Both the position numbers and the translations under genes were made by a program. 45,072 nucleotides of DNA from a virus, in the IMG/VR virus record IMGVR_UViG_3300005830_000063, positions 1 through 45,072 of that record. One strand, written 5' to 3'. Below are positions 12,863 to 35,400 of the stretch, piece after piece. Below the pieces are notes generated by a model. That model made no database searches. It was given only the letters and a program-made list of their open reading frames with translations, and was not told the DNA's origin. Position 1 is the first letter of the stretch; every line of letters starts with the position of its first letter.

Positions 12863-12863
12863 A

Positions 12864-15800
12864 TTGCCGAAACTCACGCCAGTTGACTATGATCCTTTTG
12901 CCGATGAGCAGAAGGGCAAGGCAGAGCCCAAGCTTACTCCGGTAGATTATGATCCTTTTGCAGAAAAACCCCAAGAAACGCCTTCGGCCATTCCTGGCCC
13001 TGATGCTTCTCTCGCTGATCGTGTCGTAAGCACCTTAAAGGCCGGAGGGAAGGGAGCATACCAAGGCCTTACTACAGAACTTCCGGGCATGGTCGGCAAA
13101 GCCATGGAGTTTATCGGCCGACCTTCAAATCCCCTAGATGGCGTCGGAGGAGCAATTCAGCTTCCCTTGCCCGGCATGCCGGCCGTTACAGCAGTCACAA
13201 AAGCTGTACCTTCAGTTGGAGATTTCATAGCCGAAAAAGGCAAGGAACTCAGCGGTTGGGCAGAAGAACGAGCAAAAAAAGAGCCGCTTGAACAGGCCGA
13301 TCTTTATACTCCTGAAGGGATGGTATATCAGGCAACCAAGATGCTCGCCCCTTCCCTTATACCGGGAGGGATAGCAACAAAGGCCGGAAAGATCGCTCTG
13401 GGCGTCAAGGGCCTCGCGGAAGCCGGGAAGGTAGCAGAGGCTACGGCGGCGGCCAAAAAGGCCGTAGATATCGGCTCAGCGGCCGCAGCGGGATTATTCG
13501 GACTATCTCAGGCTCAGCAAACAAAAGAAACGGCCGAAGAGGCCGGACAGCAACCAGGAATCACTCCATACCTTACAGGAGCCATAGAAGCACTCGGGGA
13601 ATTCCTCGGGACCAAATACTTCGCCAAGCTCCTTAAGCTCGATGAGGGCGGCATAACAAAGCCCGGAATGAAAGATTTCCTGAAAACCCTCGGCGTCGAG
13701 ATAGGTACGGAAATGGGCCAGAGTGGAGGCGAGGCGGCCGTAGAGAAGTATTCAGGCGTAAGACCGGGCGCAGATCCCATTAAAGAGGCCATTGACGTCA
13801 TAGGCCCCACAGCAATTATGACAGCCTTAACCGGAGGGCTCGGCCACATTGCAGGGCAAAAGCCTCAGGAGCAGGAAAAGGGTGCTCCTAAGGGCGAGCC
13901 TGGCACCACTGAAGGCAAAGAAATATCTCCGGCAGACATCAGAGTAAGGGAAGCTCTGGAAAAGGCCGCAGGCCGTCCATTGACAGATGAGGAATGGGGC
14001 AAGCTGACCGAGGCGGCAGCGGCAGAACAGAATCCGACAGAAATAGATGAGGCGGCGCACGAGGCCGCTACATCTCCACTTAACGATATCGAGCAACCTT
14101 CCGAGGCCCAGAAAAAGGCGGGCAATTACATTAAAGGGCACGCGACAATAGCAGGCCTCGATGTCACCATAGAAAATCCTCAGGGATCTATACGTTCCGG
14201 CGTATCTCCTGAAGGGCAGCCATGGCAGACAGAGATGCAATCACATTATGGCTATTTCAAGCGCAGTGAAGGAAAAGACGGTGATCAGGTAGATGCGTTT
14301 ATTAAACCCGGAACCCCTAAAAATTATGACGGTCCGGTATTCATCGTAAATCAGATAGACCCCAAAACAGGGAAATTTGACGAGCACAAGGTCATGGTAG
14401 GATTCGAGAGCCAGGCCGATGCAAACATAGCCTACCATGAGAATTACGAGCCCGGATGGAGGGGGATGAAAGATATCGTTCCCCTATCCATGGATGAGTT
14501 TAAGACATGGCTGAAAAGCGGAGAAACGAATAAACCTTTCGCTCCAAAGATACCGGCCGACCTGAAAGCCGATTTAAAGCCCTCTTCCGGGGAGAAAGTG
14601 CCTGATCATATAACGAGAGCCCTGCAGGAAGAAAGACCAGTGCCGCTCGCGGTATCGGTTAAAACAAAGCAGCTCACGAAAGATACCATCCAGGAACATA
14701 TTTCTTCCGGCGCGATCGCCGCGACGGCACCAATCAGGCTTACGACCGTTGACGAGATAAGAAGCATCATAAAGAACAACGGCCTTTCGGAAGGCAAAGA
14801 CTTCGAAGGCAAGGCCGGGATCTCGGCGCAGGTCGTTGAAGGCGGCAAGCCAGTTGTAGCATATGGAGCCAATGACAAAATAAGCGCGGCGATCGTCTTC
14901 CCGGAAAGCTCGATCGAGGGCAAAGGGCAGGCTCCGAATGAAGTAAAGATAAGCCAGAAAACGAATTTGGCAGATCTCCGATTCGTTGTCGATGGATACA
15001 GAGAGCTCATGACCGCAGAAGATCTCATGAAGATCATAGAGGGAGAGAAGGCGGCTCAAAAAGAAAGAAAGACATATCCCAAACAGGAAGCCATAAAAGC
15101 AAAGCAGAAAGAGGCGAAGCCTGCAGAAGAAGAAAAAATAAAAGTTATACACCATCCCATAACCGAGGACGAAAAACGGTTCGATACTCCCGAAGGCGAA
15201 GATAGACACGATTGGGAAAATAAGCAAGCGTTTAATAGGGCCAAGAAGCTCGGCTTTACCAAGATGGAGATAGATAGTGACGATTGGGCTAGATTCGAAC
15301 TTACTGATGATTTCGAAGTTGAAATACCCGGTAAAAAAGGTTGGGCCAGCTTCAATCATATCAATGTAGCAAAAGCTCCTAATGGTGAATGGGCCGCAGA
15401 TATTTCATATGTGCTCGGCAATCAAGGCGGTGGTGCATCACCTAGCATATGGAATACTGATTGGTATGCCGATCGAGATACGGCAATAAAAGCCGGGATA
15501 AAGAAGCTCAGGGCCGCTATTAAAGGCCGCATGAAAGACGATCTTTCCAAGACTGAAGAGGCCGATGCAAACAGGATTCTGAAGTATCTCGACGATCTGG
15601 AAAGCGGAAAGATAGAACCTACCCAGAGCGAAAGACAAAAAGAGCATAATGCTATACAGGCCAGGATAGATAAAATTGCCGAAAAGCTTCCTCCTGTCAA
15701 AAAAGGCACATATATGGCTGATATCCTCGGGGAAGAGGAAGAAAGCGAATTCAAGTATCATTATGAAATAGATGTCGATGGAAAGCCGGTATATGTCTTT

Positions 15801-17351
15801 ATAAAAACCGATGGCATAGTCGCAAGCATGGGCTCGATCCCTATGGAGCTGCACGTACCATCGAAAGACATAATTACGGAGACAGGATACAGAAGCGACC
15901 ATGTAAACATTGACGCATTAGAAGCTCCCGATGTCGAAAAAAGACTGAGGGCTTACCTTGAAGATCAGGCCGATAAAACTAAGCTTCCCAAGAAAAAGAA
16001 ATTCCCCAAACAGGAAGCACTGAAAGAAAAGCAGAAATCTAAGGCCAAACAAAAAGATATCAAACCTGGGACCGTAGGCATGATGTTGGAAGAGGGAGAA
16101 GTTGTAACTACCGTAACAGGCAGGGAAACTACACCATTCCCTTCTCTTAAATTTGGCAAGGGAACAAAAAGGACTTTGGCCCTTGTAGATAGATGGCTCG
16201 TTGATAATGCAGAAGCCGAGGCAGAATCAAGGGGTGATGAATTTAACCTGCTTCAGTTTAGGAATATGAACAGGAAGAATTTAAGCCCTGCAGATAAAGA
16301 CAGCGCGGAGATGTATCTTTTTGACAAGGAGGCCAAAGATGATAGTACCCGCAGGAAAGGACAGCCAGGGGAGACCGTTGTTCCGAGTGAAGAGCCACAG
16401 CGGAAAGAACCTGTCAAAGCCCATGCCGAGGAAGCAGGCGGAGCTAAGGCTGAAACAGGTAGAGATGTTCAAGCACATGAAAAAGTAGAGGGCCCCGTAG
16501 CGAATGAAAATGAAGTATATGAGAAAGATGATCCCCGAAATGAGAAATTCATGGAGGTCGTTGAGTATAGGACAAAGAAATACAAGGCCAAGATAACACT
16601 GCTTCATATTCCGGGAGAGGGATGGATTAGCGCTCTTGATCAGGGCCACTTGCAGGGCACCTATTCAGGAGGCGGTAGCCCTCTCATGAAAGGTGATGAA
16701 GCATTTTTAACCAGGGAGGAAGCCCTTGCCGAAGACCTGAATCGCTTGATAACGATACAATCTAGTTTCCTTTCCGGGCCTCAACCTAGCAATGCGACTG
16801 AAAATCAGATCAAAGAGGCGAAGAAGGCAGTAGAATGGGCCAAGGCTGAACTGAACAAGATTGGAAAGAAGGAAGGCCCGAATGAAGAGGAAACGCAGGA
16901 CGAGGCAGGAGGCTTCAAGGTTGGTGATTCCGTAACTGCGGTAAGTGTATTTTCTGGCGGCCTTATTGGGACGATTAAAGAAATTACCGATCATCCCGAA
17001 TTCGGCCTAAGGGCAAAGATAGAATGGGAGAAAAAGCCTGGATTTCATGCAAGCGAATCAGTATTACCGTTAGACAGATTGACGAAGGAGGCGAAGACTG
17101 ATGAAGTGCCCGAAGTGCGGAGCGAGGATGTTGGGGAACAAGTGCAAACGTTGCGGGAAGAGGGTATAGAGGGGAAACAAACAGAGATAAATATCGACGA
17201 GATCCCGGCCGACTTGATTGTGGAAGTTACGGCTATAAGGGAAAAAACAGGCAAGACCGTAAAGGTCAAGGAAAGTGCTCGGCGTGCGATCGCCGATCTA
17301 AATGCCAGTATTGAGCAATATAAAAAGCTTTTGGAGTGTCTAAAATCATGA
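12864..17351 (+). CDS. Polyvalent virion protein, 1495 aa, pyrophosphatase-like domain
   Basis: The frame extends upstream to 12810, but the TTG at 12864 has a GGAG site and follows the previous stop, so it is the chosen start. Residues 2-13 and 22-33 are tandem PKLTPVDYDPFA motifs. Residues 60-330 are Ala/Gly-rich helices, possibly amphipathic or membrane-interacting. Residues 418-554 match the pyrophosphatase-like domain described in phage and conjugative-element polyvalent proteins: GNYIKGHATIAGLDV, ENPQGS, HYGYFK, DGDQVDAFI, DEHKVMVGF. Further globular segments follow (about 583-728, 783-891 and 965-1020). A KOW/SH3-like segment (FKVGDSVTAVSVFSGG) lies near 1352-1402. Two small genes are nested in its linkers in the +1 frame. 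The protein is probably packaged and ejected with DNA. Confidence 0.8.
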   Translation: MPKLTPVDYDPFADEQKGKAEPKLTPVDYDPFAEKPQETPSAIPGPDASLADRVVSTLKAGGKGAYQGLTTELPGMVGKAMEFIGRPSNPLDGVGGAIQLPLPGMPAVTAVTKAVPSVGDFIAEKGKELSGWAEERAKKEPLEQADLYTPEGMVYQATKMLAPSLIPGGIATKAGKIALGVKGLAEAGKVAEATAAAKKAVDIGSAAAAGLFGLSQAQQTKETAEEAGQQPGITPYLTGAIEALGEFLGTKYFAKLLKLDEGGITKPGMKDFLKTLGVEIGTEMGQSGGEAAVEKYSGVRPGADPIKEAIDVIGPTAIMTALTGGLGHIAGQKPQEQEKGAPKGEPGTTEGKEISPADIRVREALEKAAGRPLTDEEWGKLTEAAAAEQNPTEIDEAAHEAATSPLNDIEQPSEAQKKAGNYIKGHATIAGLDVTIENPQGSIRSGVSPEGQPWQTEMQSHYGYFKRSEGKDGDQVDAFIKPGTPKNYDGPVFIVNQIDPKTGKFDEHKVMVGFESQADANIAYHENYEPGWRGMKDIVPLSMDEFKTWLKSGETNKPFAPKIPADLKADLKPSSGEKVPDHITRALQEERPVPLAVSVKTKQLTKDTIQEHISSGAIAATAPIRLTTVDEIRSIIKNNGLSEGKDFEGKAGISAQVVEGGKPVVAYGANDKISAAIVFPESSIEGKGQAPNEVKISQKTNLADLRFVVDGYRELMTAEDLMKIIEGEKAAQKERKTYPKQEAIKAKQKEAKPAEEEKIKVIHHPITEDEKRFDTPEGEDRHDWENKQAFNRAKKLGFTKMEIDSDDWARFELTDDFEVEIPGKKGWASFNHINVAKAPNGEWAADISYVLGNQGGGASPSIWNTDWYADRDTAIKAGIKKLRAAIKGRMKDDLSKTEEADANRILKYLDDLESGKIEPTQSERQKEHNAIQARIDKIAEKLPPVKKGTYMADILGEEEESEFKYHYEIDVDGKPVYVFIKTDGIVASMGSIPMELHVPSKDIITETGYRSDHVNIDALEAPDVEKRLRAYLEDQADKTKLPKKKKFPKQEALKEKQKSKAKQKDIKPGTVGMMLEEGEVVTTVTGRETTPFPSLKFGKGTKRTLALVDRWLVDNAEAEAESRGDEFNLLQFRNMNRKNLSPADKDSAEMYLFDKEAKDDSTRRKGQPGETVVPSEEPQRKEPVKAHAEEAGGAKAETGRDVQAHEKVEGPVANENEVYEKDDPRNEKFMEVVEYRTKKYKAKITLLHIPGEGWISALDQGHLQGTYSGGGSPLMKGDEAFLTREEALAEDLNRLITIQSSFLSGPQPSNATENQIKEAKKAVEWAKAELNKIGKKEGPNEEETQDEAGGFKVGDSVTAVSVFSGGLIGTIKEITDHPEFGLRAKIEWEKKPGFHASESVLPLDRLTKEAKTDEVPEVRSEDVGEQVQTLREEGIEGKQTEINIDEIPADLIVEVTAIREKTGKTVKVKESARRAIADLNASIEQYKKLLECLKS
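12867..12962 (+). repeat. Tandem coding repeat PKLTPVDYDPFA x2
   Basis: The segments 12867-12902 and 12927-12962 encode the same 12 residues with several synonymous differences, separated by eight codons. Conservation of the peptide rather than the bases suggests selection on the motif. Short VDYDPFA-like motifs at N-termini of polyvalent proteins are plausible packaging or docking signals (inference). Confidence 0.75.
16339..16488 (+). CDS. Nested gene A: 49-aa basic protein in +1 frame
   Basis: AAGGAGG (16326-16332) stands 6 nt before ATG 16339, and the frame runs 49 codons to TAG 16486-16488, wholly inside the 1495-aa gene in its +1 frame. The product is strongly basic and looks folded: GRPLFRVKSHSGKNLSKP, then a helix with RKQAELRLKQVEMFKHM. 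I recall small phage proteins with the same V-K-S-x(2)-G-x(2)-L-S-K core followed by an A-E-x-R-L-x-Q-V-E helix. The overlapping host segment (residues 1159-1209) is low-complexity, rich in E, A, G, K and P. Near-optimal initiation signals plus a family-like product argue for a real overlapping gene. Confidence 0.65.
   Translation: MIVPAGKDSQGRPLFRVKSHSGKNLSKPMPRKQAELRLKQVEMFKHMKK
17101..17169 (+). CDS. Nested gene B: 22-aa zinc-ribbon peptide in +1 frame
   Basis: AAGGAGG (17085-17091) lies 9 nt before ATG 17101, and the frame ends at TAG 17167-17169. The 22-residue product has four cysteines at positions 3, 6, 15 and 18 (MKCPKCG, then CKRCGK), a textbook minimal zinc ribbon or knuckle. It is in the +1 frame of the 1495-aa gene, whose own product there (residues 1413-1436) is an acidic linker. 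It is shorter than normal gene-calling cut-offs. The full CxxC-x8-CxxC pattern with a good ribosome binding site makes chance unlikely but not excluded. Confidence 0.55.
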   Translation: MKCPKCGARMLGNKCKRCGKRV

Positions 17352-17931: not shown

Positions 17932-20900
17932 ATGGCGACTTATTCTTCTGACGTTACAGACCCTACCCCGTTATCCGCTGGAGAAACCGTAGCTGTCGAT
18001 AGCAACGCTACGGTGATAATTACCGGTGGGGCATGGGGAGCGGCTGGCGCGGGTTCGATAACTGTAACCTATGGCAGACTTATCTTGCGCAACACCTCGA
18101 CTTCGGCTGGATGGGTTTTGACTTGCACACCGTCAGGCGTAGGAGCTTTCACTGTCCAAGACCAAGGCATTTTAGAGATAGACGGAGACTGGATTTCCAT
18201 TGGGACAGGCACGGGTTCAGCTTCGTTGACACTGAATGGAGCACTGACCAGTTCCGCGACTTCGGTGGTGGTAAATGAAGACATTTCAGCTTTGTCAGCT
18301 GATGGACAACTTTTGATAGATTCTGAGTATATGTATTATTCATCGAAAAACAATGGAACTAAGACCTTTACGGTGGTTAGAGGCAAAGGCGGGACGAAAG
18401 CGGTAGCTCACTTGAACGCTGCGGCAGTCAAAGCGTCCAACGCCGACCAGACCGCTACACACTGGGAATCGACCATTAACGATTATTGCCCCGCCATCTG
18501 GGTGGAAACGGCCGCTGGCAGCGGAGTATATGAAAGATTTTTAAATTTGGCAGGTGGTTACGCTACCAACAATCTGGCGTGGGCGAATGTGGGTTCAGGA
18601 AAATACGGAAAGTTTTTTACGCAATCTGGAGCAACGCTTACTTTTGGCGATGGTTCGACAGGAAAATGTCCGCCTCCGGGGGCCAATATCCGTGTTCCGA
18701 ACATCATCCTACGGAGCGGAAACACGAAAAGTGCCACGGGTCTTAGCATAGCCGGAACAGGCAAACGTATTTTCGACACCGGTACATTGATAGATATCTA
18801 TACTTCCGATTCTTTCGCTAAATCCGCCTATTCACACGTAGCTTTCGGGTTGCCGGTAACTACTGTTTCCGGCATCGACCAACTTGACTTTATCGACTGT
18901 GCTTGGGGCAACTGGTCCGGAGAGGGAGCGAACAGCGGGTGCGGGTCTTATACAAGCGTTAAAGTTTTAAATATGACAGACTGTTCAGTCTATAATAAAC
19001 CAGCCAGCTCTTCCCAATATGCCATTAACCTGAATGGCAATGTCATTTTCACCGCAGATAATTGCGAGTTTATTTGCATGCTCACTGCCTCCAATAATAA
19101 CAATGTCGGATTTTATTCAGGCGCTACCAGCAATGAACTCTATATGACTGACTGCTTGTGCGTGGGGGCTGGTTCATATTACGGACGATATATCAAGATC
19201 ATCGACCATGAGATAGCCGAAAATGTCCTTTTGAATGATACCAACACCGGAAGCTCTAAACGAGCCATGGCGTTTTCTGGTATGACTGATGGAGTTATCA
19301 ACGGTCTTTACCAACCGGCAGGCGGTAGTTTCCCCGGCACCAACGGTGCAGCCTTATATTTCCTGTCCGGGATCACCCTAAAAATTTATAATGTCGATAT
19401 ATCTGCGACGGAAAATACCTATGTAGCGTCGTATGCTTCCAGCGGCTATTTCGTCAATATGAACTTTAGAAATTGGCAGGTGCAGGGCTATAAGACCAAC
19501 CTGTTCCAGCAGGGTTCTTCCGTGCAACATTACGGGCAACTGATGTCTGATATCATCTGCTATGAAACAGGTGCAGGGACAACGCTCGCAGCGTTCAAAT
19601 TTTCTAACTCGCCCATCATGAGAAAAATTACCTGTTCCAGTCTTCCTGTTACTACGGCTCTGACCGTCTATGATTCCCCAATGTGGTATATTTTGGACGA
19701 TACCACGGGCGGCACGCTGTCTATAAACCCCGTGGCAGTCTCGGTCAATAATCCCAATGTTACCATTAGCGGTTCGGTAAAGTTCGCCCCGTCCTATGGT
19801 CGGGTATATATGCCTGTTGAAGCTGACGAGGTGGAATATGTCTTTCCCTACCTGATTTACGGCATATCCTCGATGGACACCGCAGCTTATACGGTCGCTA
19901 ACAGCGTTATTTGTGAATATGCGATAGACACGGGCGGGGGATATGGCTCATGGAAAGAACTCACGACCGGAAATGTTTCCGGGGAATCGGTAGATGAAGA
20001 AACTGGCTTTTATCTTAAAATCAGATTTAGGGCTACGGCTTCAAATACGGGCAATTATTACACCGTTGCCAATATTGCCTGCACAACGGTCAAAACGGTC
20101 ATGTACCCCGTGCAGACGGTCACACTTCAACTCGAAAATGTAGTCACCGGCAGTCAATACTGGATAAAGAAAAACAGCACGGGAGAGATTCTTGCTAACG
20201 GTACGGCAGCGGCCTCAACCGTGAATATCCCTGATATAAATTATGCTGCAGATTTCGGAATAACAATCAGGGTAAGAAAAGCAGGTTACGAGCCGTTTGA
20301 AACAGGGGGAACCGTAACAAGTGGGGGCATCTCTTCATGGATTTCCCAGGTAGCAGATACCGCAAAGGGAACGGCAGCGGCCTCGGGGGTGAGCTATAAC
20401 TATTCGACCAAGGAGATTGCTGTCACATCAGCGAACACCGTGAATGAGGTTTACTCTCATATCATGGAAACATTCGATGATGCTGCCCAAATGGATGATA
20501 CCATTCCCATGAGAGCCGATACGCCGACACAATACACGCTTCTTAATTCATGGGTATTTACTTCTTCATCTATTCAGTATCTCTCGGGAGGGGCACTGCA
20601 GGATGATGCAGGAAACAACATCTGGACGAGAGTTAAGACCTTAGGCAGCATCGTTGCAGGGACCACGCTTTATATAGAACAGGATGGGGCGGTCGTATGG
20701 ACGGCAGGGTCTACAGGCCATATCGATATGCTTCTCCAGACAAAAAGCGGTGGTTCGGAGATCGATGGCCAGAACTTTACCGTTTATGCGAGATTGTTCC
20801 AACAAACATATGACAGCAATTCAGCAACAGGAGGTTTCTTTACAGCGTATCTCGCCCTTGCTACCCAAGCCGATCCGGAACTGACGATAGCTTCTGCTGT

Positions 20901-23271
20901 CCTCGATGCTTATACCGGAGTATCTATAGAGTGGGGTTCTTTCCTCGAAGATATAGGGGATGGCGATGGAGACAAACCCTATTCGATCTTTATTGAGTGC
21001 AATAATTACACGCTTGCTCAGATCTATAACTGGCTGCAATATCAATTATTGTCGGCATCTGACATCGATGCAGGAGCAGGGACGCACATTGGCAAGATAA
21101 CTGCCGAGTTTGGTTCTTATAAAGGCGGGACATTTATCGGCGCTATTGGAGTATGGCTGAATAATGTCGCCACTGCAGATATTAATAATTATATTGTCCA
21201 CGACGATAATGGAGACCCGCATGAGGCTCCTGTACCTCCAACAAGCATAGCCGTCAACAATATCGTTTCCGGGTCCACGGTCTATATGTACGATGTGACG
21301 AATACGACGGAACTTTGTAATGAAGTCGTTGTCGGGACATCGAAGAGCGTTGTTTATGCAGGAGGATCCGGCAATACCATCATAATCAGGGTCAGGCATA
21401 AGGATTATGTGCCATGGAAAACTACGGGCGTTACAACTACTTTGGGCATGTCGGCTACTGCCGATCAGGTTCTTGATGGAACGATATCTTCTTATACTGC
21501 ATCTATCGCTACCGATTACGATGTTGATACCGGGACAAAGATCATTACCCATGTAACTGGCAGCACGGTCTACACAGTTCGAGAATTCCATTCCTGGCTG
21601 AATGATTTATTTGCCGGCACAGGGTATATGGAGTTCGATTATGCTTCCGTTGCCTTTACGAAATACAATATTCAGCTTGTCAACGCCTATTACTTCTCGG
21701 ATGATGCGGATACGCAATATCTCAAAACAGGTTCGGTGATATGTCATGATGGCGACCGACTCTATGGCTCGGTAATCACGATAGGAACAATCGGGGCGCA
21801 GGATATCTATATTGTTCAGAATTCAACAAAACTCACATCTTTCTGGGGTTCTGGCCCTATTGACGTTCTTATCAAGGTTAAGGATTCAGGCGTATTGATC
21901 GATTCCGGCAAGCTGAGTATCTTTACGCGCGATTGGGGAGAGCAATTCGACCATACCATAGTCACCATTACCGAGGGAGGGAAGAACTACGCCGCAATTT
22001 CTACCGGGACCGATGCCAATAACGATACAGCATTAGGCACAGTGGCGACATATTCAGACATTACGCTCACGGAAGGCACGGCGAATAAGCAGATCGACGC
22101 GGCAGACTCGGCGGCAGATTACGATGTTGTCATTGACTGTAATGGCAGAACGCTGAAGGAAGTCTATGAATACCTGAAATATGTCACCAGGGCAGGCTCG
22201 ACCTTTACGATTCTCTCCGATAATGGAGAGGAATATTATGCCATGGACCCCGGCTATGCCGAGACAAAGAACGGGCCTTTTGGTTCTTTCGCGGGAGGTA
22301 AATTCTTCGGAGCGCAGGGAGTATGGATAGAAAACATGGCTCTTGCAGACCGTATGAATTATGAGCTGATCGACAGCGCAGGGGTAACGCATATGCCAAC
22401 GGTGGTAACGGCGTATATCGCGGTCTCGAATATTGTGGATGGTTCGAGAATCCAGCTTTATGATATTACCGCCGATGCTGAATTAGCTAATGAGATCGTA
22501 TCGGGAACATCATTCAATTTCGGATATACCTATTGGGGCAGTGATCATGATATCCGGGTAAGGCTCACAATGGTTTCAGGGGCCTCGACAGCCTATAAGT
22601 GGTATGAATCTCAGGGCACTGCCACAATTAACGGCATGAGCCTCAGAGCGAGCCAGGAAGCCAATACGATATATACAACAAATAATGTAGACGGCTCAAC
22701 GGTTACGGAATGTTCGGTATCGGGAACCACGATCAGGATTTATGTGGACGATCCGGATAACACCACGACAGCGCAAAGGATTTATAACTGGTATCAGTAC
22801 ATGCTCTTTACCGAGGACGGCATACGGGACCAGGACGGAGCTTATGTGATCGGCAATGATTCGACGCATTATACCCTTGATAACAGCATGAAAATAATCA
22901 ATCAGGATACGCTGAATCCTCTCAACATTACAGGAGCCAATATTGTTCCGCAATCGGGACCGGCAACGAATATTTTTGATTTGAGCAATGGGGCTTCGAT
23001 GTGCCTCAACTTCAACCGCGTTGAAGGCTTTGCCTATTCCTCCGGCTCGGGATTATCTACAGAAGAACATAATACCCTGCTTGCTATTGATAACGTTGTC
23101 GATGCCATGAGCGGCAAAGTAATAGACATTCACGATACAAGCATCGGGAAATGGGTGCTCGATCGCGTTGCCCTTACCTTGACCCATTACCGTGCCGATG
23201 GCGTAACTGTTCTTAAAACCTTCAATCTTACTGAAGAAGAAGGCGTATATGTAGCGAGAATCCCGGCATGA
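17932..23271 (+). CDS. Large modular tail appendage protein (beta-helix plus repeats)
   Basis: This 1779-aa protein has an N-terminal half (about residues 30-720) with the Asn/Ser/Thr/Gly-rich short-strand pattern of a right-handed beta-helix, as in tailspikes and pectate-lyase-like domains. From about 725 it has at least two to three long repeats of 375-390 residues. Each opens with a strand motif such as ENVVTGSQYWI (731), NNIVSGSTVYMYD (1105) or SNIVDGSRIQLYD (1496). Each contains a YNWLQY-like helix, and two contain GxxGGxFxGAxGVW. The C-terminus has THYRADGVTVLKTF, a short module I recall at the ends of phage appendage proteins. It is likely a receptor-binding or surface-degrading fibre. 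Catalytic residues cannot be assigned. Confidence 0.7.
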   Translation: MATYSSDVTDPTPLSAGETVAVDSNATVIITGGAWGAAGAGSITVTYGRLILRNTSTSAGWVLTCTPSGVGAFTVQDQGILEIDGDWISIGTGTGSASLTLNGALTSSATSVVVNEDISALSADGQLLIDSEYMYYSSKNNGTKTFTVVRGKGGTKAVAHLNAAAVKASNADQTATHWESTINDYCPAIWVETAAGSGVYERFLNLAGGYATNNLAWANVGSGKYGKFFTQSGATLTFGDGSTGKCPPPGANIRVPNIILRSGNTKSATGLSIAGTGKRIFDTGTLIDIYTSDSFAKSAYSHVAFGLPVTTVSGIDQLDFIDCAWGNWSGEGANSGCGSYTSVKVLNMTDCSVYNKPASSSQYAINLNGNVIFTADNCEFICMLTASNNNNVGFYSGATSNELYMTDCLCVGAGSYYGRYIKIIDHEIAENVLLNDTNTGSSKRAMAFSGMTDGVINGLYQPAGGSFPGTNGAALYFLSGITLKIYNVDISATENTYVASYASSGYFVNMNFRNWQVQGYKTNLFQQGSSVQHYGQLMSDIICYETGAGTTLAAFKFSNSPIMRKITCSSLPVTTALTVYDSPMWYILDDTTGGTLSINPVAVSVNNPNVTISGSVKFAPSYGRVYMPVEADEVEYVFPYLIYGISSMDTAAYTVANSVICEYAIDTGGGYGSWKELTTGNVSGESVDEETGFYLKIRFRATASNTGNYYTVANIACTTVKTVMYPVQTVTLQLENVVTGSQYWIKKNSTGEILANGTAAASTVNIPDINYAADFGITIRVRKAGYEPFETGGTVTSGGISSWISQVADTAKGTAAASGVSYNYSTKEIAVTSANTVNEVYSHIMETFDDAAQMDDTIPMRADTPTQYTLLNSWVFTSSSIQYLSGGALQDDAGNNIWTRVKTLGSIVAGTTLYIEQDGAVVWTAGSTGHIDMLLQTKSGGSEIDGQNFTVYARLFQQTYDSNSATGGFFTAYLALATQADPELTIASAVLDAYTGVSIEWGSFLEDIGDGDGDKPYSIFIECNNYTLAQIYNWLQYQLLSASDIDAGAGTHIGKITAEFGSYKGGTFIGAIGVWLNNVATADINNYIVHDDNGDPHEAPVPPTSIAVNNIVSGSTVYMYDVTNTTELCNEVVVGTSKSVVYAGGSGNTIIIRVRHKDYVPWKTTGVTTTLGMSATADQVLDGTISSYTASIATDYDVDTGTKIITHVTGSTVYTVREFHSWLNDLFAGTGYMEFDYASVAFTKYNIQLVNAYYFSDDADTQYLKTGSVICHDGDRLYGSVITIGTIGAQDIYIVQNSTKLTSFWGSGPIDVLIKVKDSGVLIDSGKLSIFTRDWGEQFDHTIVTITEGGKNYAAISTGTDANNDTALGTVATYSDITLTEGTANKQIDAADSAADYDVVIDCNGRTLKEVYEYLKYVTRAGSTFTILSDNGEEYYAMDPGYAETKNGPFGSFAGGKFFGAQGVWIENMALADRMNYELIDSAGVTHMPTVVTAYIAVSNIVDGSRIQLYDITADAELANEIVSGTSFNFGYTYWGSDHDIRVRLTMVSGASTAYKWYESQGTATINGMSLRASQEANTIYTTNNVDGSTVTECSVSGTTIRIYVDDPDNTTTAQRIYNWYQYMLFTEDGIRDQDGAYVIGNDSTHYTLDNSMKIINQDTLNPLNITGANIVPQSGPATNIFDLSNGASMCLNFNRVEGFAYSSGSGLSTEEHNTLLAIDNVVDAMSGKVIDIHDTSIGKWVLDRVALTLTHYRADGVTVLKTFNLTEEEGVYVARIPA

Positions 23272-23498
23272 TCATTACTCAGGGATACGGTGCCAAAACA
23301 GTAATAACGAGCGGTTATGGCAGTTATGTCCCTTCAATTATCGTTCCTCCACCGGCAGAAAGCAAAATTCCAAGTGGAGGATCTTACATCCCAGACGGCG
23401 TTATTCATCCAACAAAGCCTAAAATAAAAAGGCCGTATATTGACGACGACGAAGTTTTTGAGATTTTAGCAAAGATATTCGTGGAGGTAATTTCATGA
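23268..23498 (+). CDS. Hypothetical 76-aa proline-rich protein
   Basis: The gene begins in an ATGA overlap with the appendage gene and ends in an ATGA overlap with the giant polyvalent gene, so it bridges the two. The 76-aa product starts with Gly/Tyr-rich turns (ITSGYGSYVPSIIVPPP), has a Pro-rich middle, and ends with an acidic helix (DDDEVFEILAKIFVEV). It may be an attachment or trimerisation accessory for the fibre or a small virion protein. No family is recognised. Confidence 0.6.
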   Translation: MIITQGYGAKTVITSGYGSYVPSIIVPPPAESKIPSGGSYIPDGVIHPTKPKIKRPYIDDDEVFEILAKIFVEVIS

Positions 23499-26400
23499 GC
23501 TCATTAGCGAACTGCTTAAAAATACATAATATATCTCCTGCTGAGGCAAAGCTTATTCGCCAGAAAGCAAAGGATTACAAAAGAGAGAAATTCAGTGCCA
23601 AGGAAGCCAACGAGGGCGCAGTACAGGACGTTATCAATCAGTTTATCCAGGAGAGAGAAAACATAATCCGGCAGATCGAGGCGGCGAAGAAAGGAGGCAA
23701 AGAAAATGCCAAAGTGCAAGAAACCCAAAAAACCGTAACCGAAGTAACTCCATTCACAAGGGGATACATTGTCAAGGATCGGCTATCCGGCCGCATCGGT
23801 GTTGTTGTCCGTCCGACATATCCGGGGCGAGTGGAGGTAATTTTCAATGACGGCCGGCGAGATGAGTTTGGGCAGGTTCAGCTTATAAAAACTGAAGAAT
23901 TCGCCGTCAGCGATCAGGCTATAGATCTGCAAAAATTTGTCCTGAGCAAAGAGCCAGGCCAGCTCCCCCATGAAAAGCTGAAGTCTTTAAAAGCAGGAGA
24001 TACCTTCTCACATGGATTACATACCTATAAGATTACGGACATTTACGAGGATGGTTCAGTCAAAGCGCTCGATATAACCAACAAGAAGAAGCCTATCGAA
24101 AGAGTATTCCATGATTTCGAGAAAGAAACCCATCTCAAGCTAGACACTTCAGAAGCGAAGAAGCCGGAGGAATATGGCACCAAAAATACCGTGTTCACAA
24201 AGGAGAGGGCAGACGCGGCCAGGGAGAGATTACGCAAGAAGCTCAACCGGGTATATATGGGCCTCGATCCAGAGATTGTCAGGGATGGCATTGAAATAGC
24301 CGGATTCCATATTGAGGCAGGGGCCAGGAAGTTTAAGGATTATTCCCTTAAGATGATTGAGGATTTCGGGGAGGCTATCAGGCCTTACCTGAGGTCGTTT
24401 TACATGGCAGTAAGAAATTATCCCTCCTTTGATAACGAGGGAATGAATACCGAGGCCGAACTGGATTTGATCGAGAAGCAGGCAGAAAAGGGCGAGGAAA
24501 CAAAGCCGTATTTTATTTACCAGAAAGAAACACGGAATTTTATGGAGGTGGACGGCAAAAAGATAACGTTCGAAGGCTTTGAAACCAATGATCTTTTTAT
24601 CTACCACCATCCTAAGGATACGATCGATAATTGGGCTATCTACGAGGGCCATTCTGGAATAAAAGTCTCTGGCGGCCGCACGAGGAAGGAAGCCATTGAA
24701 AATACACGCAAGTTATTGGAAAAGAACAAAGATAGAATCGAAGAAGCTATTAACAGGGCAATAGAAAGTACCGGAAGATCTCCGAGGTATGCAGGTGTTG
24801 ACTTCGGGGAGCAAAGTGCTAAAATAAAGCCAGAAGGAGTTATTGATGAAAGCTTGGGTACAGCAGGCAATCAACCACTGGAAGGAGTTTCAGCCGAAGA
24901 GGTACGAGGAACTTCAGAAGGCGGGCCAACTACAGCAGGAGGCGGAGAGCGCGGCAGAGCTGACCGAGAAGGCACTGGAAGAACTGATGTCGCAGGGAGC
25001 GACGTTCTCGGAGGCGTGGGAGCAGGTGAGAGAGTTATACCTATTCCCGAAGGAAGAGCCGAACTTGGAGACGTCAGAGAAACAGGACGACCTGAGCGCA
25101 CACAAGATAATAAGCTCGGAAATGCAGAGCCTTCAGGAAGCACTGAACGAAGCGGATTAACCCCCACTCCCGGAGAAATAACCCCGAAGCAAAACTACAC
25201 GATCACCGATGCCGATAATCTAGGCAAAGGGTCTCAAGCACAGAAATTCGCTGACAACGTAGCGGCTATCAAGCTGATCAAGAAACTTCAGGAAGAGGGC
25301 AGGCAGGCCACGCCTGAAGAGCAGGCCGTCCTTGTTCGATATGTAGGGTGGGGCGGTATCAAAACTGCCTTCCCAGACGAAACCGGGAAATTCAATAAAG
25401 GATGGGAAAAGAAGGGTCAACTACTTAAAGATCTGCTCAGCAAAGAAGAATGGGACGCTGCATATAGCACCATTCTTGACGCCCACTACACATCACAAGC
25501 TGTAATTAACTCCATGTACGAGATTGTAGACCGGCTCGGTTTCAAGGGCGGCAATGTCTTGGAGCCATCTATGGGCACCGGTAATTTCTTTGGCCTCATG
25601 CCTCTTAGCATGAGAAACGATTCGGCCCTTACCGGAGTGGAATTCGACAATATTACCGGAGCCATAGCGAAACAACTATACCCGAATACGCATATCATGG
25701 CTCCAATGGGATTTGAGGATGCAAGATTCGCTGATAATTTCTTTGATCTCACAATAGGAAATCCACCATTCGGCAACAGGCCGATACCGTATGGTACGAG
25801 TAAACACCTAAAGGGATTCACCATCCATAATTATTTCTTTGCGAAATCATTGGATAAACTGCGCCCTGGCGGTATTCAGGCAATGGTAGTTTCGAGATGG
25901 TTTCTTGATAAAAAAGACGCATCACAAAGAGAATACCTGGCCCATCGAGCTAACTTCATCGGGGCGATCCGGCTACCGAATACGGCCTTTCAGGAAAATG
26001 CACTCACAGAAGTAACCACGGATATTGTTATTTTCCAGAAACTTCCCGAAGAGGCATATGGCAGTGCAGATAAATCATGGACGAAGACCGGGATGGTACA
26101 GGACCCACTCGGCGGCGAGGACATAGAGATCAGCCAGTATTTCATAGATAATCCCGTGATGATGCTCGGCCGCATGGAGCGCAGCGGGAAAATGGTAACT
26201 GGCATGGAGCCCACTCTTGCATACATAGACGGTTCAGATATCAACGCCATGATGCAGGACGCCATTAATCAGCTTCCCCAGAATATATACGGAGAGACCG
26301 GGACCGTATTGCCAACCTATGAGCTTACAAGGGAAAGTGTCGAGCCTGCGCCGGAAGGCTACAACATTGGGTCTTATATCGTAGAGGACGGCAAGTTAAA

Positions 26401-29400
26401 GCATATCGAAGAATCTCCGGACGGCTCGCAAGTATCCGTAGAACTAACTCCGGAGACGCAATGGACAGAAAAACAAAAACTCGGGCAAGGAAGATATGAA
26501 AGGCTGATGAAGCTCGCTGAATTGCGCGATTCTGTACGAAAACTTCTTCGTCATGAAGTCCAGGACGATGCTAAATCCGTCATGGAGGAGGAACGGGAAA
26601 AGCTCAATAAGCTTTATGACGAATTTGTAAAGGAGCATGGATATCTCAACAATACCGCCAATGCCTCTCTTTTCCATGACGATCCTGATAGCCCTCTTCT
26701 TCTCGCTTTAGAAAACAATTATGAGAGGGGTATCAGCAAGACAGTGGCGGCAAAGCTCGGTATCAAACCTGAAAAGCCGACAGCCAGTAAGGCAACGATA
26801 TTCAAGAAAAGGGTTATTTCTCCATATGTTCCAGTAAACAGCGCTGATACGGCCGAAGACGCCTTGATGATCACGTTATCTCAGCTTGGAGAGGTAAACA
26901 TCACTCACATGGCAAACCTTACCGGCAAGGAAAATAGCGAGATAATAAAGGAACTTCACGATGATCTTGAAAACCCGATCATCTTCCTGAATCCTGAAAC
27001 CGATACCTGGGAGCAGGCTTCGAAATATCTGAGCGGCAATGTCAAAAAGAAAGAGAAGATCGCGCGTGAGAAGGGCCTGATAAAAAACGCTGAAGCTTTG
27101 AGGGCCGTATTCCCTCCTGATATAAAAGCCTCGGATCTATCCGTTAAGCTCGGGGCGTCCTGGGTCAACGAAAAGACATATGAGGATTTCGCTAAATACC
27201 TGTTCGGAGATGAGGCCGACGTAGTAGCAAAATATATAGCTACAGACGGCAGAATTATCATCGACATAAGGGGAGGCAATGAAGGCAAATTACGCAAATA
27301 CAGCACGCCGCGCATAGATGGGCCAACCCTTCTTAAGAAAATCCTCGGATCAGCGAACATCGCAGTGTATGACGTCCTCGATGATGGTTCACGGCAGATC
27401 AATAAAGATGCAACGGTAGCGGCCATTGCAAAGGCAGATGAGATCCGGCAGGAATTCGAAGATTGGATATTCAGTGAAGCCGGGAGAAGAGATTCACTGC
27501 TCCAATTCTATAACGATAACTTTAATACTGATGTCGAGCCTAAATACGATGGTGAACACTTACTGCTACCCGGCAAGGTGCCTGATGCCACTATTCAGCT
27601 ACGCAGACACCAGAAAAACGCTATATGGAGAATCATTCAGGATCAGAAAGCATTACTCGACCATGTAGTAGGTGCAGGCAAGACCTATACCATGGTAGCA
27701 GCAAGCATGGAAATGAAGCGCATGGGAATTGTAAGGAAGCCCATGATAGTAGTCCCTAACCATCTGGTAACTCAATGGGCGAAGGATTTCTATACCTTGT
27801 ATCCGGGAGCAAAGATCCTCGCCATGAAAAAGAAGGATTTCGAAAAGAGAAACCGGAGAACTATGCTTTCCAGAATCGCTACAGGAGATTGGGATTCCGT
27901 CATTGTAGCACATTCCAGTTTTGGCTTTATCAACGTAGATAAAGAGTGGGAAGCATCATTTATCAAGAAACAAATCGACGATCTGATGGAGGCTGCCAGA
28001 ATCACCAGAGAGACGGAGGGGAAGAGAAGCCGGAGGGCGAGCGAATATCAGAAGGCGGTCGAGCGCCTTCAGGCAAAACTAAAGGCCCTGCTTGATAAGC
28101 CGATCGACAATATTCTTACCTTTGAAGAGCTCGGCGTCGATCATCTGTTTGTAGATGAAAGCCACGAATTTAAGAATCTTTTCTTTACAACGGCAAAGCG
28201 CATGCTCGGCCTCGGCAACCCCATGGGAAGCCAGAAGGCAATGAATCTGTATATGAAAGCCCAATGGTTACAGCAGAAGCACTCTGGCAAGGGAGTGGTA
28301 TTTGCAACCGGCACTCCGGTCAGCAATAGCCTCAGCGAGCTTTATACGATCCAACGCTATCTCGGGCTGCAGGATCTTGAAAACAGAAACATAAAGTCAT
28401 TCGATGCATGGCTGAACAACTTCGGGCTAGAGCAGAGCGATTACGAATTGGACAGCACGGGAGTAAAGTTAAAGGCCGTGAATCGCCTCAGAAGCCTTAC
28501 CAATATCCCTGAAATTATGTCGCTTTATAAGCAATATGCTGACGGAGTGACAAACGATGATATCAAAAAGGCCTACAAAGAACAGACCGGCAAGGAATTT
28601 CCCATACCCGGTATCAAGGGCGGCCAGAGACAGAATGTTGTCGTAGATCGCTCAGATGATCAGGCCGCATATTTCGCAGATATAGTACAAAGGGCAGACG
28701 CCGTAGAGAAAAAAGATGTAGAGCCAGAAGAAGATAATATGCTGAAGATCACCACTGATGCTCGAAAAGCGGCCCTTGATATCAGGCTCGTAGATCCAGG
28801 AGCAAGCGATCATCCCGGCAGCAAGACTCACGTAGCCGCTGACAGGATAAGGGATATTTGGGAAAAATGGTCGGCAGACAAAGGGACGCAGCTTGTTTTT
28901 CTCGATCTGTCAATCCCTCTCAGCGCATCAAAGAGAGAACAGGCCAGTATCATAGATCTTATCAACAAAGCAGACGCGGGAGATGAAGAGGCTCAGCTTG
29001 CCCTTGATAAGCTAAATCCTGATGATCTTGTTGCCGCAGAATCAGCAAAAAGCGGATTCAGTGTATATGACGACCTGAGATCAAAGCTTATTGATCGTGG
29101 AATTCCTGCAGGGGAGATAGCTTTCATCCATGACTACAATACGGACAATAAGAAGCAGGATCTTTACGATATGGTCAACGCCGGGAAGATAAGGGTGCTT
29201 CTCGGGAGCACTTCCAAATTGGGCGCAGGGACGAACGTTCAAAAGAAGTTGGTAGCGGAGCATCACCTTGACTGTCCTTGGAGGCCTTCCGACATTGAGC
29301 AGAGAGAAGGAAGGATTATTCGCCAGGGCAATGAGTTAGTTGAAAAATATGGTGTCGGTAAATTCGATGTCGAGATTCATGCGTATGCTACAGAACAGAC

Positions 29401-32400
29401 TTATGACGCTCGTATGTGGCAGGTTCAGGAGCAAAAACTGATTGCTATAGGAGCATTGCGGAGCTATAAGGGAGAAAGAGAGATTGAAGAAGTAGCCGCG
29501 GCTGCCGCGACCGCCGCAGAGATGAAGGCCGCTTCAACCGGGAATCCTCTCATTCTTGAGGAAGTTAAGTTAAAGGATTCAATCAGAAAGCTCGAAATAA
29601 AGCAGAAGTCTCATAAGAGGCAGATATGGGACGCTGAAAGCGATATCAAGAAATTCGAACGGGCCCTCGAGGTCTTCCCTGAAGAGGTGAAGGATCTGGA
29701 AGTGGACGCCGAAAAAGTACGCAAGTATAAAGATAATCCATATGGCGAAGACAGGCCTTCCGTCAAAATACAAGGCAAAGAATACACAGATAGACAGGAG
29801 GCCTTAAAGGCGGCCAACGATGAAAAACTACGGCAAATCGGAGGCAAGGATGTAGAAACCCTTGTCAGAGAAACTCTCGTATTGAACATAGACGGAGAAG
29901 ACTATAAAGGCTTCGATACGATCAAGCAGTATATCGTCGATCATATTTCAGAAGGCTTCAATGTTTTGGTCGATGGAAAGAAAAAGCATGTATCAACAAA
30001 GGATAGAGCAGAGAGCATAGTTTCTGACGCCATGGATGTAAGAGAAAAAGAGGTAATGAAATCTCTTCCGAAGTTTTCTATCGATATCAATGGCACGCCA
30101 GCGACAAGCTCAACTGCAATAACGAAAGCCATACATGACGCCTTTGGTGACATGGACCCTTTTGCTATGGAGATCGGAGGCAAAGCCTACATAAAGAGAT
30201 CTGATGCCGGAAAGGCCGCCCAGGACATGATCGACGATCAGTTGCCAACGGTAAAGGGAGATATGCTGTCAAATTATCGTGTTGGTACTTTTGCAGGCAT
30301 GGAAGTCTTCATAGACGCCTTGAATCATCCAAAAGAATCACATGGGAGGATGTACGAATTCGAGGTATCGATAAAACTCAGGGGGAAGTCTACCCAAATA
30401 GATTCCGGCATTGTAAGCAATACGCCGGGAATGGAGATATCCAGAGTAGAGAGATTGGCTAAGCATATTATTTGGGAACTGAGCACGAAGAAAGCGACCT
30501 TGAAATCAGCCAAAGAGCAAATGCCTGTTCTACAACAGATTTTATCTAAGACATGGCCGCAGCAGCAGGAGCTTGACGAAAAGAAGGCGAGGCTCGCTGA
30601 GGTACAAAAAATACTTTCCGAGAAGCCGAAAAAGCAGGAAGAAGAGGGCGGTGAAGCACCTGCGCTATCCCTATCCGAAGATGAAGACCTGAAGGCCTTC
30701 GCGCAATCCATAGAGGCGAAAAATGCTTTCGGATCGGCAATGAATCCGGAAACTTCTGACGATTACCTGGCCCTTCTGAAGAAAGACTATATGACGCTTT
30801 CAGACCGGGAGAAATTCATTGTAGACAATCTGATGAGCCCGGAATACAGTCTTGGAGACAGAAAAGCCGCAGGCCTCGACATGGGAGAAGTTAAGGCCTC
30901 GATCGTTGATCTTCAGAAGGAATGGAAGAATGGTCCGGATATCCGCGTGGTTCAATCCCAAGCGCAATTACCGGATCGCCTGCAGAAATACATATCTTCC
31001 TCAAAGGGCAAGGGAGCCGTGGAGGGGATATTCGATCCCAACACCAAAGGTATTTATCTTGTAGCTGACAACCTTAGATCGATCGGGAGAGCTCATGTTG
31101 TTCTATTTCATGAGGCAGTAGGGCATTACGGCCTTAGGGGTATCCTGGGCGGTGATATCGCTCCTATCTTGAATCAGGCCTACATAGCGAAGAAGAAGGA
31201 AGCCGATCAGATAGCCAAAAAGTACGGCCTCGATGTCAGCACTCAGGAGGGAAAGCAGCGCGCTGCCGAGGAAGTGCTTGCTCGTATGGCAGAGAAAAAT
31301 GAAAAGTCACCGTTCCTTCAGAAAGTCTATGCAGCGATAAGAAACTGGCTCAGGAAAATAGGCTTTAATATCAACCTGTCAGACAACGATCTAAGGGTAA
31401 TGGTATCCCAGGCTCGCCAGTTTATCGAGGAAGGCAAGAAACCCTTGAATCTTAGCGGCCTAGCCGCCATGAGCAGGAGAGAGGCAAGGGGAGGTTTCTA
31501 CTCTCAGCTTTATAAGGTACTCGACAATAAGTTGCCTGATCAGGTTACTCCTACACTGTTCAATAAGGTGATCGGCCAGCATCGTGAAGGCATACTCGGC
31601 ATAAAGCCGGAAGAGATAGCAGACACCAAGGCAACCGTCTCAGCGATCTTCGGGGATAAGAAGATCCTGCCGAAACAAGAGATATTGGATTATCTGAGAG
31701 CATCGGACAGGACCGATGTTCAGGATGTTGTTTTGGGAGGCGATTCTAAATATAAGAAATTATTGGATAAATTTTCCAGAAAAGTTAGTAAGAGACTAGG
31801 CCGCCAAGGATGGACATTTGAAGATCTAACAGAGGAAGAATATAAAGAGTATTACGAAATTTATAAGCGAAAAGATGTGTCTTATTACACTACTCTTATA
31901 GCTGAAACAAAAGCAGAGAAAGATAAGGTACTGGAAGATTTTAAGGAGGCAGAAAATGTTTTTGATAGGATTTCCGAAAACTTAAAAAAAGGTATCCCAG
32001 TAGGTTCGTCAAATAAGAAATTTTATGATGACTATTTTAAGAATGGGAATCCGTTTGAAGCTGAACTATATAGATTATATGACAAGATAAAGATGCTGGA
32101 AGAGGAAAAGGAAAGGTCAGCAATTCAAGGAACGCATTTCTCGGAATATAGCATACCTGGATATATAACTGATAGTTATAGAGAACAATTTGTAACGGCG
32201 AAGAAAATATCCGGAGAAAAATTAAAAGATAATCCGGAGCAAAACTGGAAAGACGGCCATTCGGCATATTCAAATATCGAGAATCCGATTGTGCGAATAC
32301 GCTACAACGATCGAACGGATGCTGATGGCAACATCATAAGATTTATAGAAGAACTTCAGGGGCCAAACCCTGAAAACGAAAAGAAGATGCCAGAAATATA

Positions 32401-35400
32401 CCGGAAGTATAAATATCAGATAGGACTAAAGCGAATCCTTCAAAATATTGCTGAAGAGAACGAAACGAGAAAAGCTAATTTTGAAGATACAATAGATGCT
32501 ATCGCATGGACTACCGGAGATACGCAAGCTTACAGGTACAATCTCAGTACATATATCGATGAGATAGGTTATGCCGTTAATGACGATGGAACCTATGAAA
32601 TACATTCATATAAGCATGGAGAAGAATTATCTCAACTGACACAGAAAAATGTACCATCAGAAAAACTTGAAAATATTGTTGGCCTTAATCTTGCCAAGAG
32701 AATAAGGGCAGGAGAAGGTGCTAAAGATGGTGATCTGAAAATGTTTGGAGGCCTCGATCTTAAAGTTGGAGGAGAAGGCCTGAAAAGAGTATATGATGTC
32801 ACGATACCTAAATTCCTCAATAAATACGGAGAACAGTGGGGCGTGAAGGTCAAGGAGGTTGAGATTACCTTGGCGGGGATGAAGGATGCTGGCGACAGAG
32901 TTTTTGACACTAAGGCTGCCGCTATTGATTGGGCCGATGAGAACCTTGGAAATCACCAATACGAGATACAAAAGCGTGAGAACATCGGCGGATTTATTAT
33001 CTACGATTCCTACGACCATAAATATATTCAAGGGGATTCTGTGATACTAGCCTCTTCCATCCCTATCACTCCCGAGATGCAGGCCGATATCCTCCAAGAA
33101 GGGCAGCCGCTATTTGCGCGCCAGGAGATGAGCGTGGCCGAGCTCGAAACATGGAAGAAACAGACGGAGGAATTATACGCGGCCGAGCCGCTAACCGAAA
33201 CTGACGCGGTAGGACGGCTGAATCGCAGGCTTACTCTCCGGGAACTGGACAATGCCATTAAAAAAGCAAGGGAACGCGAAAAAACAGCGCCTATGTTCTC
33301 TCGTGGCGATATCGATCCTGTATCCTCGGACTTCGCGGAAGTGGAGCAAAGAATTCAGGCGTCCAAGGGCGCACCAAAGGCGGGGCTTAAAGAGAAGATA
33401 ACCAAAGGTATCGAAAGAACTGCCCATTCCTTTACCAGACATTTCCCTCTTCTGGACCCGAAAAGAGACGGAGCAGAATCGGATATCCTGAGAAGAGCGG
33501 AAAGCATACCGGAATATGCCAAGAAGACCGCGACGAAAGACATAGCGGCCATTGTCGGTAATTTAAGAAAAAATCAGGCCGAAGTGTTTACTCGCGTACT
33601 GATACTGGACGATATGCTGAAGGATATCGAAAGCGGCCTCCTGAAAGGCGAACTGCCGTTCGGGTATGGCAACGAAGAGCAGGTAAGGGCTGATCTCGAA
33701 AAGTTTCAGCGCGCGGCAGATGGTAATGCCGAGATCCGGGCGGCACTGGAAAAACGTAAGCAATACATGGATAACCTTCGCAATCGTCTTGTCGGCAGGG
33801 GTTTACTCCATGAATCCGTCAATGAAGACGATCGCTATTTCCATCATCAGGTTCTTGAATATATGGCAATCCGGGCAGAGGGAGGCCAGTATACCGGCTT
33901 ATCTTCCGGGGATATGAGGCTGAAGAAAAAGGGATGGCAGCTCGCCAGAAAGGGCTCATATCTCGATTACAACACCGATTATCTTCAGTCTGAATTCGAG
34001 GTAGTATCACAGGCCCTTTCACAGATCGAGACGGCTGATACCATGAAAAGACTCAAAAGGACGGCCGATATTTCCGGCCAGGTGAGAGCCGAAGCAAGAG
34101 ATCATGACTTGGATAACTGGCAAGAGGCAATACCCGAGGGCTATACGATATGGCAGCCGGAAAAGGGGAATCACTTCTACCGCGTGCATGTCCTTACGGA
34201 AAGGGTCCTTGATCAACTCCTAGCCGATATCGACACATGGGATACAACCAAGAGTTTCGATGAACTCATGGAAAGCAACGAGGTTCGGCAAGTATTGGCC
34301 CTCGGAGGGAAAAAAGAACAGTGGGTTATCCCGGACAGGCTTGCAAAGACGCTCGATAATTTCAGGGCCTTTAAAGATGAGGGGCCGGTCGGCAAAGCCT
34401 CCAAATCTATTCTTAACACTTGGAAGCAATGGACGCTTTTAAATCCATTCAGGATCGTCAAATACAACCTGAACAACATGAGCGGCGACCTTGATATTGC
34501 TCTTGCATATAGCCCGAAGATCCTGAAATATGCGAAGGGAGCAATGGCCGATCTCTTAAGAGACCAGAGGAATAAAGCCGTTACTCCTGAGCTTCAGAAG
34601 GAACTGGATATAGCCCTGAAGAAAGGCGTCATAACATCAGGCATAACTATCCATGAGATTACGGACATAAACGAATCCGGCCTTTTCAGTATCCTTACAG
34701 GAAAAGATCATAATCTTATTCAAAAGATATGGAAAACCGCGAAAGATTATACGAACTGGCGCGAAAACATCCTGCGCCTCGCGGCCTACCGTCACTTTAA
34801 AAATGAGATCGACAATGGCAAAAAGGTATACGGAGCATCGAAAAAGGCCGAGATAGACAAGATCACGAATCCTGACGATCGTGCCGCTAAACTGGCCAGA
34901 GAGCTGATAGGAGATTACGGAAATGTCTCTGAGGCCGGCCAGTGGATCAGGGCCCATATGATTCCCTTCTGGTCGTGGGCTGAAATCAATGCTCCAAGAT
35001 ATGTTCGCCTTATGAGAAATCTAAAGAATGAAGGACGTACCACAAGAGATGCTCAGGGGATAATAGCCTGGAAGGCAACCAAACTCGGCCTGAAGGCCTC
35101 TATCTTGTTTGCCCTGATAAGCCTTTGGAATGGTACGTTCTGGCCGGACGAAGAGGAAGAGCTTGGCATAGGAGGCAGGAGACAGCTTCATATCATCCTC
35201 GGCAGAAATGAAGATGGCACGATCAGAACGCTAAGATTTCAAGGTGCCCTCTCTGATGCGCTTTCATGGTTTGGCCTTGAAAATCTTCCCCAGGATGTAA
35301 AGGATGTGACGAGCGGCAGAACAACCTTTAGCAAGAAATTCGAAGAGGCTTACAAGGCTCCAATAAACAAGGTGATTCAGGGAATGAGACCGCTTGAGAA

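Follow-up and report, generated by a model that had tools for sequence, protein, structure and literature searches.

A conserved small gene nested out of frame in the linker of a phage DarB-like polyvalent gene

Introduction

Can the linker of a giant phage protein owe its sequence to a second, smaller gene read from the same bases in another frame? This question is raised by a locus in a 45,072-nucleotide stretch of viral DNA (IMG/VR record IMGVR_UViG_3300005830_000063; hereafter the window), where an earlier note, made from the letters alone, had described a 104-codon frame with a strong start signal inside a 4144-codon gene. Outside small viruses, few fully nested genes have strong comparative proof. 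The features concerned are:

23495-35929, plus strand: host gene for a 4144-aa DarB-like polyvalent protein (methylase plus SNF2/DEAD helicase), assigned from its ORF, Pfam matches and identity to known proteins
24825-24827, plus strand: TAA, stop codon in the +1 frame, 18 nt before the nested ATG
24834-24839, plus strand: Shine-Dalgarno (SD) sequence AAGGAG, 6 nt before the nested ATG, read from the sequence
24846-25160, plus strand: nested gene in the +1 frame relative to the host gene; product of 104 aa, 12.1 kDa and pI 4.5, helical and TnpV-like
24845-25159, plus strand: linker of the host protein, rich in Gly, Arg, Glu and Thr, from the same DNA in the host frame; assigned from composition and a host dN/dS of about 1.7 in relatives
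25193-26497, plus strand: methylase region of the host protein, directly after the overlap; the synteny anchor, matched by tblastn to 95 phage records

Results

The host gene and the start of the nested frame

The host gene fuses an adenine methylase to an SNF2-type helicase, the combination by which DarB-like proteins are recognised. Its Pfam matches are Eco57I methylase (at about 25727-25960), ResIII, SNF2-rel_dom and Helicase_C, and its product is 44-49% identical to the DarB-like proteins of Atu_ph08, VvAW1 and PBC5. A methylase followed by an SNF2-type helicase is likewise the order in P1 DarB and the Bcep22/PBC5-type giants (PMC5512222). Packaging into the virion and protection of DNA from restriction have been reported for P1 DarB, and packaging for JC1 gp69 (PMC9024508, PMC9144972). 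Gly makes up 22% and Arg 10% of the host frame over the overlap (7% and 6% gene-wide), a composition in line with the linker described earlier.

Read along the window, the start region consists of TAA (24825-24827), AGCCAG, AAGGAG (24834-24839), TTATTG and the ATG at 24846, followed by 104 codons and a TAA at 25158-25160; the earlier description of AAGGAG lying 6 nt before an ATG with 104 open +1 codons was therefore correct. The +1 frame is open from 24828, and the TAA before it argues against entry from farther upstream in that frame. This AAGGAG-ATG start is the best of its kind in the 12.4-kb host gene. Of the out-of-frame ORFs on the sense strand of that gene with 60 or more codons, no second one matches it in length and SD sequence together, in keeping with the impression, first gained by eye, that such signals are rare here.

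Long out-of-frame stretches also arise by chance. Synonymous shuffling of the whole host gene gave an out-of-frame stretch of at least 110 codons somewhere in 36% of trials, so an argument from length or 'quality' in one genome alone is suggestive only, and we dropped it as proof of a nested gene. With host amino acids and codon usage kept, the probability of an open +1 frame over the window linker is about 0.02; in the relatives this frame is often still open after shuffling (median P 0.54). The case for a nested gene comes from the comparative data.

Selection on the two frames

We compared 15 close pairs, which are not all independent, as one phage was used twice and some are related. Differences at host codon positions 1, 2 and 3 were.145/.122/.308 upstream of the overlap and.051/.029/.282 downstream of it, as against.168/.066/.062 within it. 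Nested positions 1, 2 and 3 are host positions 2, 3 and 1; the variable position has thus shifted to the nested wobble base, which is host position 1. All 15 overlaps showed less variation at host position 3 than at position 1; none of 437 control blocks of 105 codons each, taken from elsewhere in the same genes, did so. The same inversion was seen in two gut TnpV pairs and in JC1/DC1 (Lessievirus).

Consistent with this, the nested frame had a median dN/dS of 0.15 and the host frame one of 1.7, that is, purifying selection on the nested frame exceeds what the host frame imposes. On these values the host frame over the overlap is a passenger, which mainly has to stay open. The earlier note had proposed measuring substitution in both frames, and the depressed host-synonymous change that it looked for is present in every overlap. 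Its claim that an inverted quality of the two frames reveals selection on the nested one held with respect to selection, by comparison, but not with respect to length and quality, which are insufficient alone. We are almost certain that 24846-25160 is a functional nested gene.

Homologs

A tblastn search with the product matched 20 phage records, in which the matched region carries no annotation other than that of a DarB-like, methylase, transglycosylase or hypothetical gene. None of the annotated phage records that we examined lists the nested gene separately; it has been overlooked because annotation pipelines drop long overlaps. Homologs were found in 11 named phages at 29-51% amino acid identity. 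In Pavtok, PEp14, Stean, LASTA, SopranoGao, POI1126, VvAW1 and Atu_ph08 the homolog lies +1 to the giant CDS, as it does in the DarB-like gene of Microcystis phage Mwe-JY07. Itty13, whose record annotates opposite-strand ORFs there, has the same nested arrangement, and PBC5 is included with a frame difference upstream. A search of IMG/VR with the window protein as a single sequence gave no match. Searching with a profile instead brought in 71 viral and 20 bacterial contigs, nearly all with the gene nested; some of the viral ones among these 91 contigs, drawn from IMG/VR and bacteria, duplicate named phages. Same-frame homologs overall come from the 11 named phages and about 85 viral or prophage contigs.

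Homologous linkers were checked for +1 stops, and at about 96 of 102 loci (60 of 66 at <90% identity) the ORF is open and nested +1 inside a large open host frame. An ORF wholly within another frame is, in other words, conserved among homologs. Eighteen columns are invariant among the first 11 sequences. The position of the start codon is conserved (ATG, rarely GTG), and an SD match of at least 5 nt precedes 66% of nested homologs, compared with 8% of 4958 other +1-frame ATGs in the same genes; at the sequence level, then, the nested gene has a conserved initiation signal of its own.

The gene is kept in phages of Proteobacteria, Cyanobacteria and gut bacteria. A search of plasmids for the family gave no match, and genome surveys of three bacterial groups yielded almost no further copies, so the family is mostly phage-borne. 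Relatives that exist as independent proteins, which the earlier note had also proposed looking for, were found as a Corticibacter copy lacking the host gene, a Pseudidiomarina fusion and standalone TnpV genes.

Several chromosomal loci deserve separate mention. In Corticibacter populi (L117:8717-9016; L085) the small gene is intact, with the SD sequence AAGGAG, and the host frame is truncated; this copy may be a prophage relic or a domesticated gene. The Pseudidiomarina domain (L118:8781-9569, minus strand; the same gene as L092) belongs to a 262-aa fusion with a hydrophobic C-terminus and a membrane segment, adjoining type I restriction-modification-like genes. A divergent standalone relative in a Burkholderiales genome (L115:4084-4392, minus strand) adjoins a small membrane-protein-like ORF, and a distant member in a Burkholderiales prophage (L116:9490-9792) is nested +1 in an ORF of more than 3200 aa and has the SD sequence GGAGG.

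The product and its relation to TnpV

AlphaFold2 predicts helices at residues 2-15, 17-25, 29-49 and 54-65, with pLDDT above 90 over residues 1-70, followed by an acidic low-confidence tail with one weak helix. The window product has a net charge of -12 over 104 aa and a pI of 4.5. The family as a whole is acidic (median pI 5.1; median charge -4.6 per 100 aa), with some members near neutral, and conservation falls on W, H, P, R and aromatic residues.

Only one family is matched repeatedly, Pfam TnpV (PF14198), a transposon-encoded protein known from mobile elements of Firmicutes. Of 63 members 25 reach it at E<=0.01 (best 3.6e-5); the window protein itself scores 14.4 bits (E 0.038), below the Pfam gathering cutoff of 27 bits. 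Comparison of the family with TnpV by hhalign gave E 4.8e-5 and a probability of 68% with diverse sets, and 22% with other sets. The predicted TnpV fold has its helices in the same order as the model of the nested product, both are small helical proteins with an H/Y..P/R..Y..L..G.L core pattern, and undisputed TnpV is also found nested +1 in DarB-like genes of gut phage contigs. On the other hand, two elements of TnpV are missing from the window protein, the beta hairpin at the N-terminus and the W..MN.I..AEE..ELIY helix at the C-terminus; the window protein also has an R-E-x-Y-L-F-P motif of its own, and most IMG/VR TnpV genes are standalone. On balance, a distant kinship of the nested family with TnpV is likely. 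Other Pfam/NCBIfam names (AATF-Che1, FomD etc.) were rejected as coiled-coil noise. A TnpV search in 60 genomes of one phylum found no match, and the controls were silent as well.

By sequence, the PDB gave designed helical proteins only; by fold, the best match was 2apl (PG0816; Z 7.6, 62 residues, rmsd 2.2), a level expected of helical bundles. The TnpV model had other, weak matches, and we therefore drew no function from folds.

What occupies the linker in other DarB-like genes

The methylase region right after the linker served as a synteny anchor and yielded 95 phage records. Where no family member is recognisable, another +1 ORF with a start signal is often present, as in DC1 and JC1 (start signals AAGGAGGT/AAGGAG), Y7, USP_25 and, weakly, 8P. 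These divergent ORFs, several with a strong SD sequence, lie at L129:5627-5950 (DC1), L121:5627-5965 (JC1), L122:4187-4483 (Y7), L123:3546-3932 (USP_25) and L120:3657-3929 (8P).

In phage contigs from the human gut, the nested ORF is TnpV beyond doubt (E 9.8e-42 and 1.2e-24). Undisputed TnpV thus occupies the same +1 position in a DarB-like gene, lying inside the methylase-encoding frame in L125, L126, L127, L132, L134-L137, L139, L141 and L166; the exceptions are L133, L138 and L131, where the host frame either starts within TnpV or is broken. The other TnpV genes of viral contigs stand alone in the ordinary way. At L140:8001-8351 TnpV is nested +1 in a 1231-codon open frame that has no methylase match and is possibly another host gene or part of a truncated contig.

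Discussion

Taken together, our data are very probably best explained by a genuine nested +1 gene that is translated by internal initiation, derives from an engulfed TnpV-type gene and has an accessory role. Internal initiation, judging from the start region and its conservation, appears well supported: ribosomes would initiate at AAGGAG-N6-ATG on the polyvalent mRNA and yield a four-helix protein of ~12 kDa, and those making the giant protein would translate these bases as well, into a flexible linker under weak constraint that joins the N-terminal domains to the methylase-helicase.

As to what the product does, it is co-encoded with the DarB-like protein, and we tentatively suggest that it may be an accessory made with that protein, perhaps aiding its folding, virion loading or action. 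The analogy is with P1 Ulx, a small protein from a gene beside darB that is packaged and aids DarB localization/packaging (PMC9024508), and in Thermus Lalka phages darB is likewise paired with a Ulx gene (PMC11437467). The likeness is that of a small protein encoded with darB; Ulx differs in coming from a separate gene downstream. Homology to Ulx was considered and dropped, since three family profiles gave no match to it at E<=10.

A second and on present evidence unlikely scenario is that the product is an independent DNA-transaction or excision-type factor that shares only an mRNA with the DarB-like protein. Precedent comes from TnpV of Tn4451, for which a role in excision was postulated by analogy with lambda Xis (PMC3158075), and standalone TnpV genes do occur in integrative elements and prophages. 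However, that excision role is itself merely postulated, the host gene is of a virion/ejection type that comes late in the order of morphogenesis, and the acidity of the family is atypical of a DNA binder.

The acidity might instead point to a DNA mimic that, like Ocr or ArdA, inhibits restriction enzymes and so complements the DarB-like methylase. The charge of the window product would suit such a role, the host gene is of an antirestriction type, and overlapping antirestriction genes have a precedent in ardD of Tn5053 (PMC3533173). We nevertheless consider this improbable, as the charge is modest across the family and in some members nearly absent, the conserved residues are those listed above instead of acidic arrays, and there is no structural match to Ocr/ArdA.

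With regard to how the product is made, programmed frameshifting from the host frame would give a truncated polyvalent protein with a helical C-terminus. The idea draws on PBC5, in whose genome as sequenced the upstream domains share the frame of the nested ORF, so that gp22 ends with it, and on the PHROG profile phrog_938, which has the nested segment at its C-terminus. Yet no other genome shows this arrangement, which in PBC5 looks like a change of one base relative to its neighbours, a +1 stop lies a few codons before the ATG in the window and in several relatives, and the conserved SD-ATG pair sits at the start of homology; we regard frameshifting as very improbable. In PBC5 (L008/L075; about 5718-6294 of L008) the apparent single-base frame change is upstream. 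This misplacement is probably the reason that phrog_938 ('endolysin') and the structure entry Q8W6J4 match the nested product, and we rejected the 'endolysin' label as an artefact of the annotated gp22 running into the nested frame.

Weakest of all, and scarcely credible, is the notion that the +1 ORF is a by-product of host-protein constraint or codon bias and encodes no functional protein: a Gly/Arg/Glu-rich linker in a biased genome does tend to leave +1 open, and the shuffling results show that long stretches are to be expected in a gene of 4144 codons, but this would leave unexplained the dN/dS values of the two frames, the codon-position inversion, the conserved SD sequence and start, the invariant residues and the homologs outside any host ORF, and as far as sequence comparison can tell the substitution pattern has already refuted it.

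If the gene is a functional nested one, which of the two frames came first? The earlier note spoke of a gene overprinted on the larger one, and here the distribution suggests the reverse. TnpV is nested in gut DarB-like genes and standalone elsewhere, from which it is probable that the small gene is the older of the two frames, the giant protein's linker being the derived reading. In the simplest history, a small gene beside a methylase gene would have been engulfed when upstream domains fused to the methylase through it, out of frame. The locus is then a clear example of a giant protein whose flexible linker looks like the shadow, cast in another frame, of a smaller gene that is better conserved.

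The Rz/Rz1 spanins of lambda are a precedent, one gene lying within the other in the +1 frame and being translated by internal initiation, although these are unrelated proteins and both partners act in lysis. The nearest known concept is that of the ShiLan-type hidden HNH endonucleases, in which an intact gene lies out of frame in an open segment of a phage methylase gene (PMC11855218). The ShiLan-type genes are insertions of homing endonucleases that start with GTG and have no detectable SD sequence, whereas the nested family is not an endonuclease, has a conserved ATG and SD sequence and is retained across distant phages. P1 darB has its methylase near the N-terminus with no long linker before it, and a search found no member of the family inside. 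In open-licence PubMed Central, preprints excluded, we found no paper that describes a gene within a DarB-like gene or an overlap of TnpV with a methylase; given that scope, this absence is not proof of novelty.

The nested gene adds an unstudied component to a known antirestriction system, and TnpV, a family whose role has merely been postulated, gains a testable context. A bolder reading, which we hold to be possible and rather doubtful, is that DarB-like genes across distant phyla are constitutive two-gene units in which a TnpV-type protein is a true partner of the methylase-helicase, the +1 frame being fixed because joint synthesis and delivery of the pair is required. TnpV, which has long been taken as a transposition protein, would then be the partner of an injected methylase-helicase.

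Elsewhere in the window, a 1779-aa ORF lies 5' of the host gene (17932-23271); a PHROG scan of part of it (17932-21531) gave a single weak match, to a PHROG without an assigned function. A second large polyvalent-type gene (12810-17351; 1513 aa) has a domain common to DarB-like/transglycosylase PHROGs, and a gene for a RecT-like annealing protein lies close to the right end (43225-44265).
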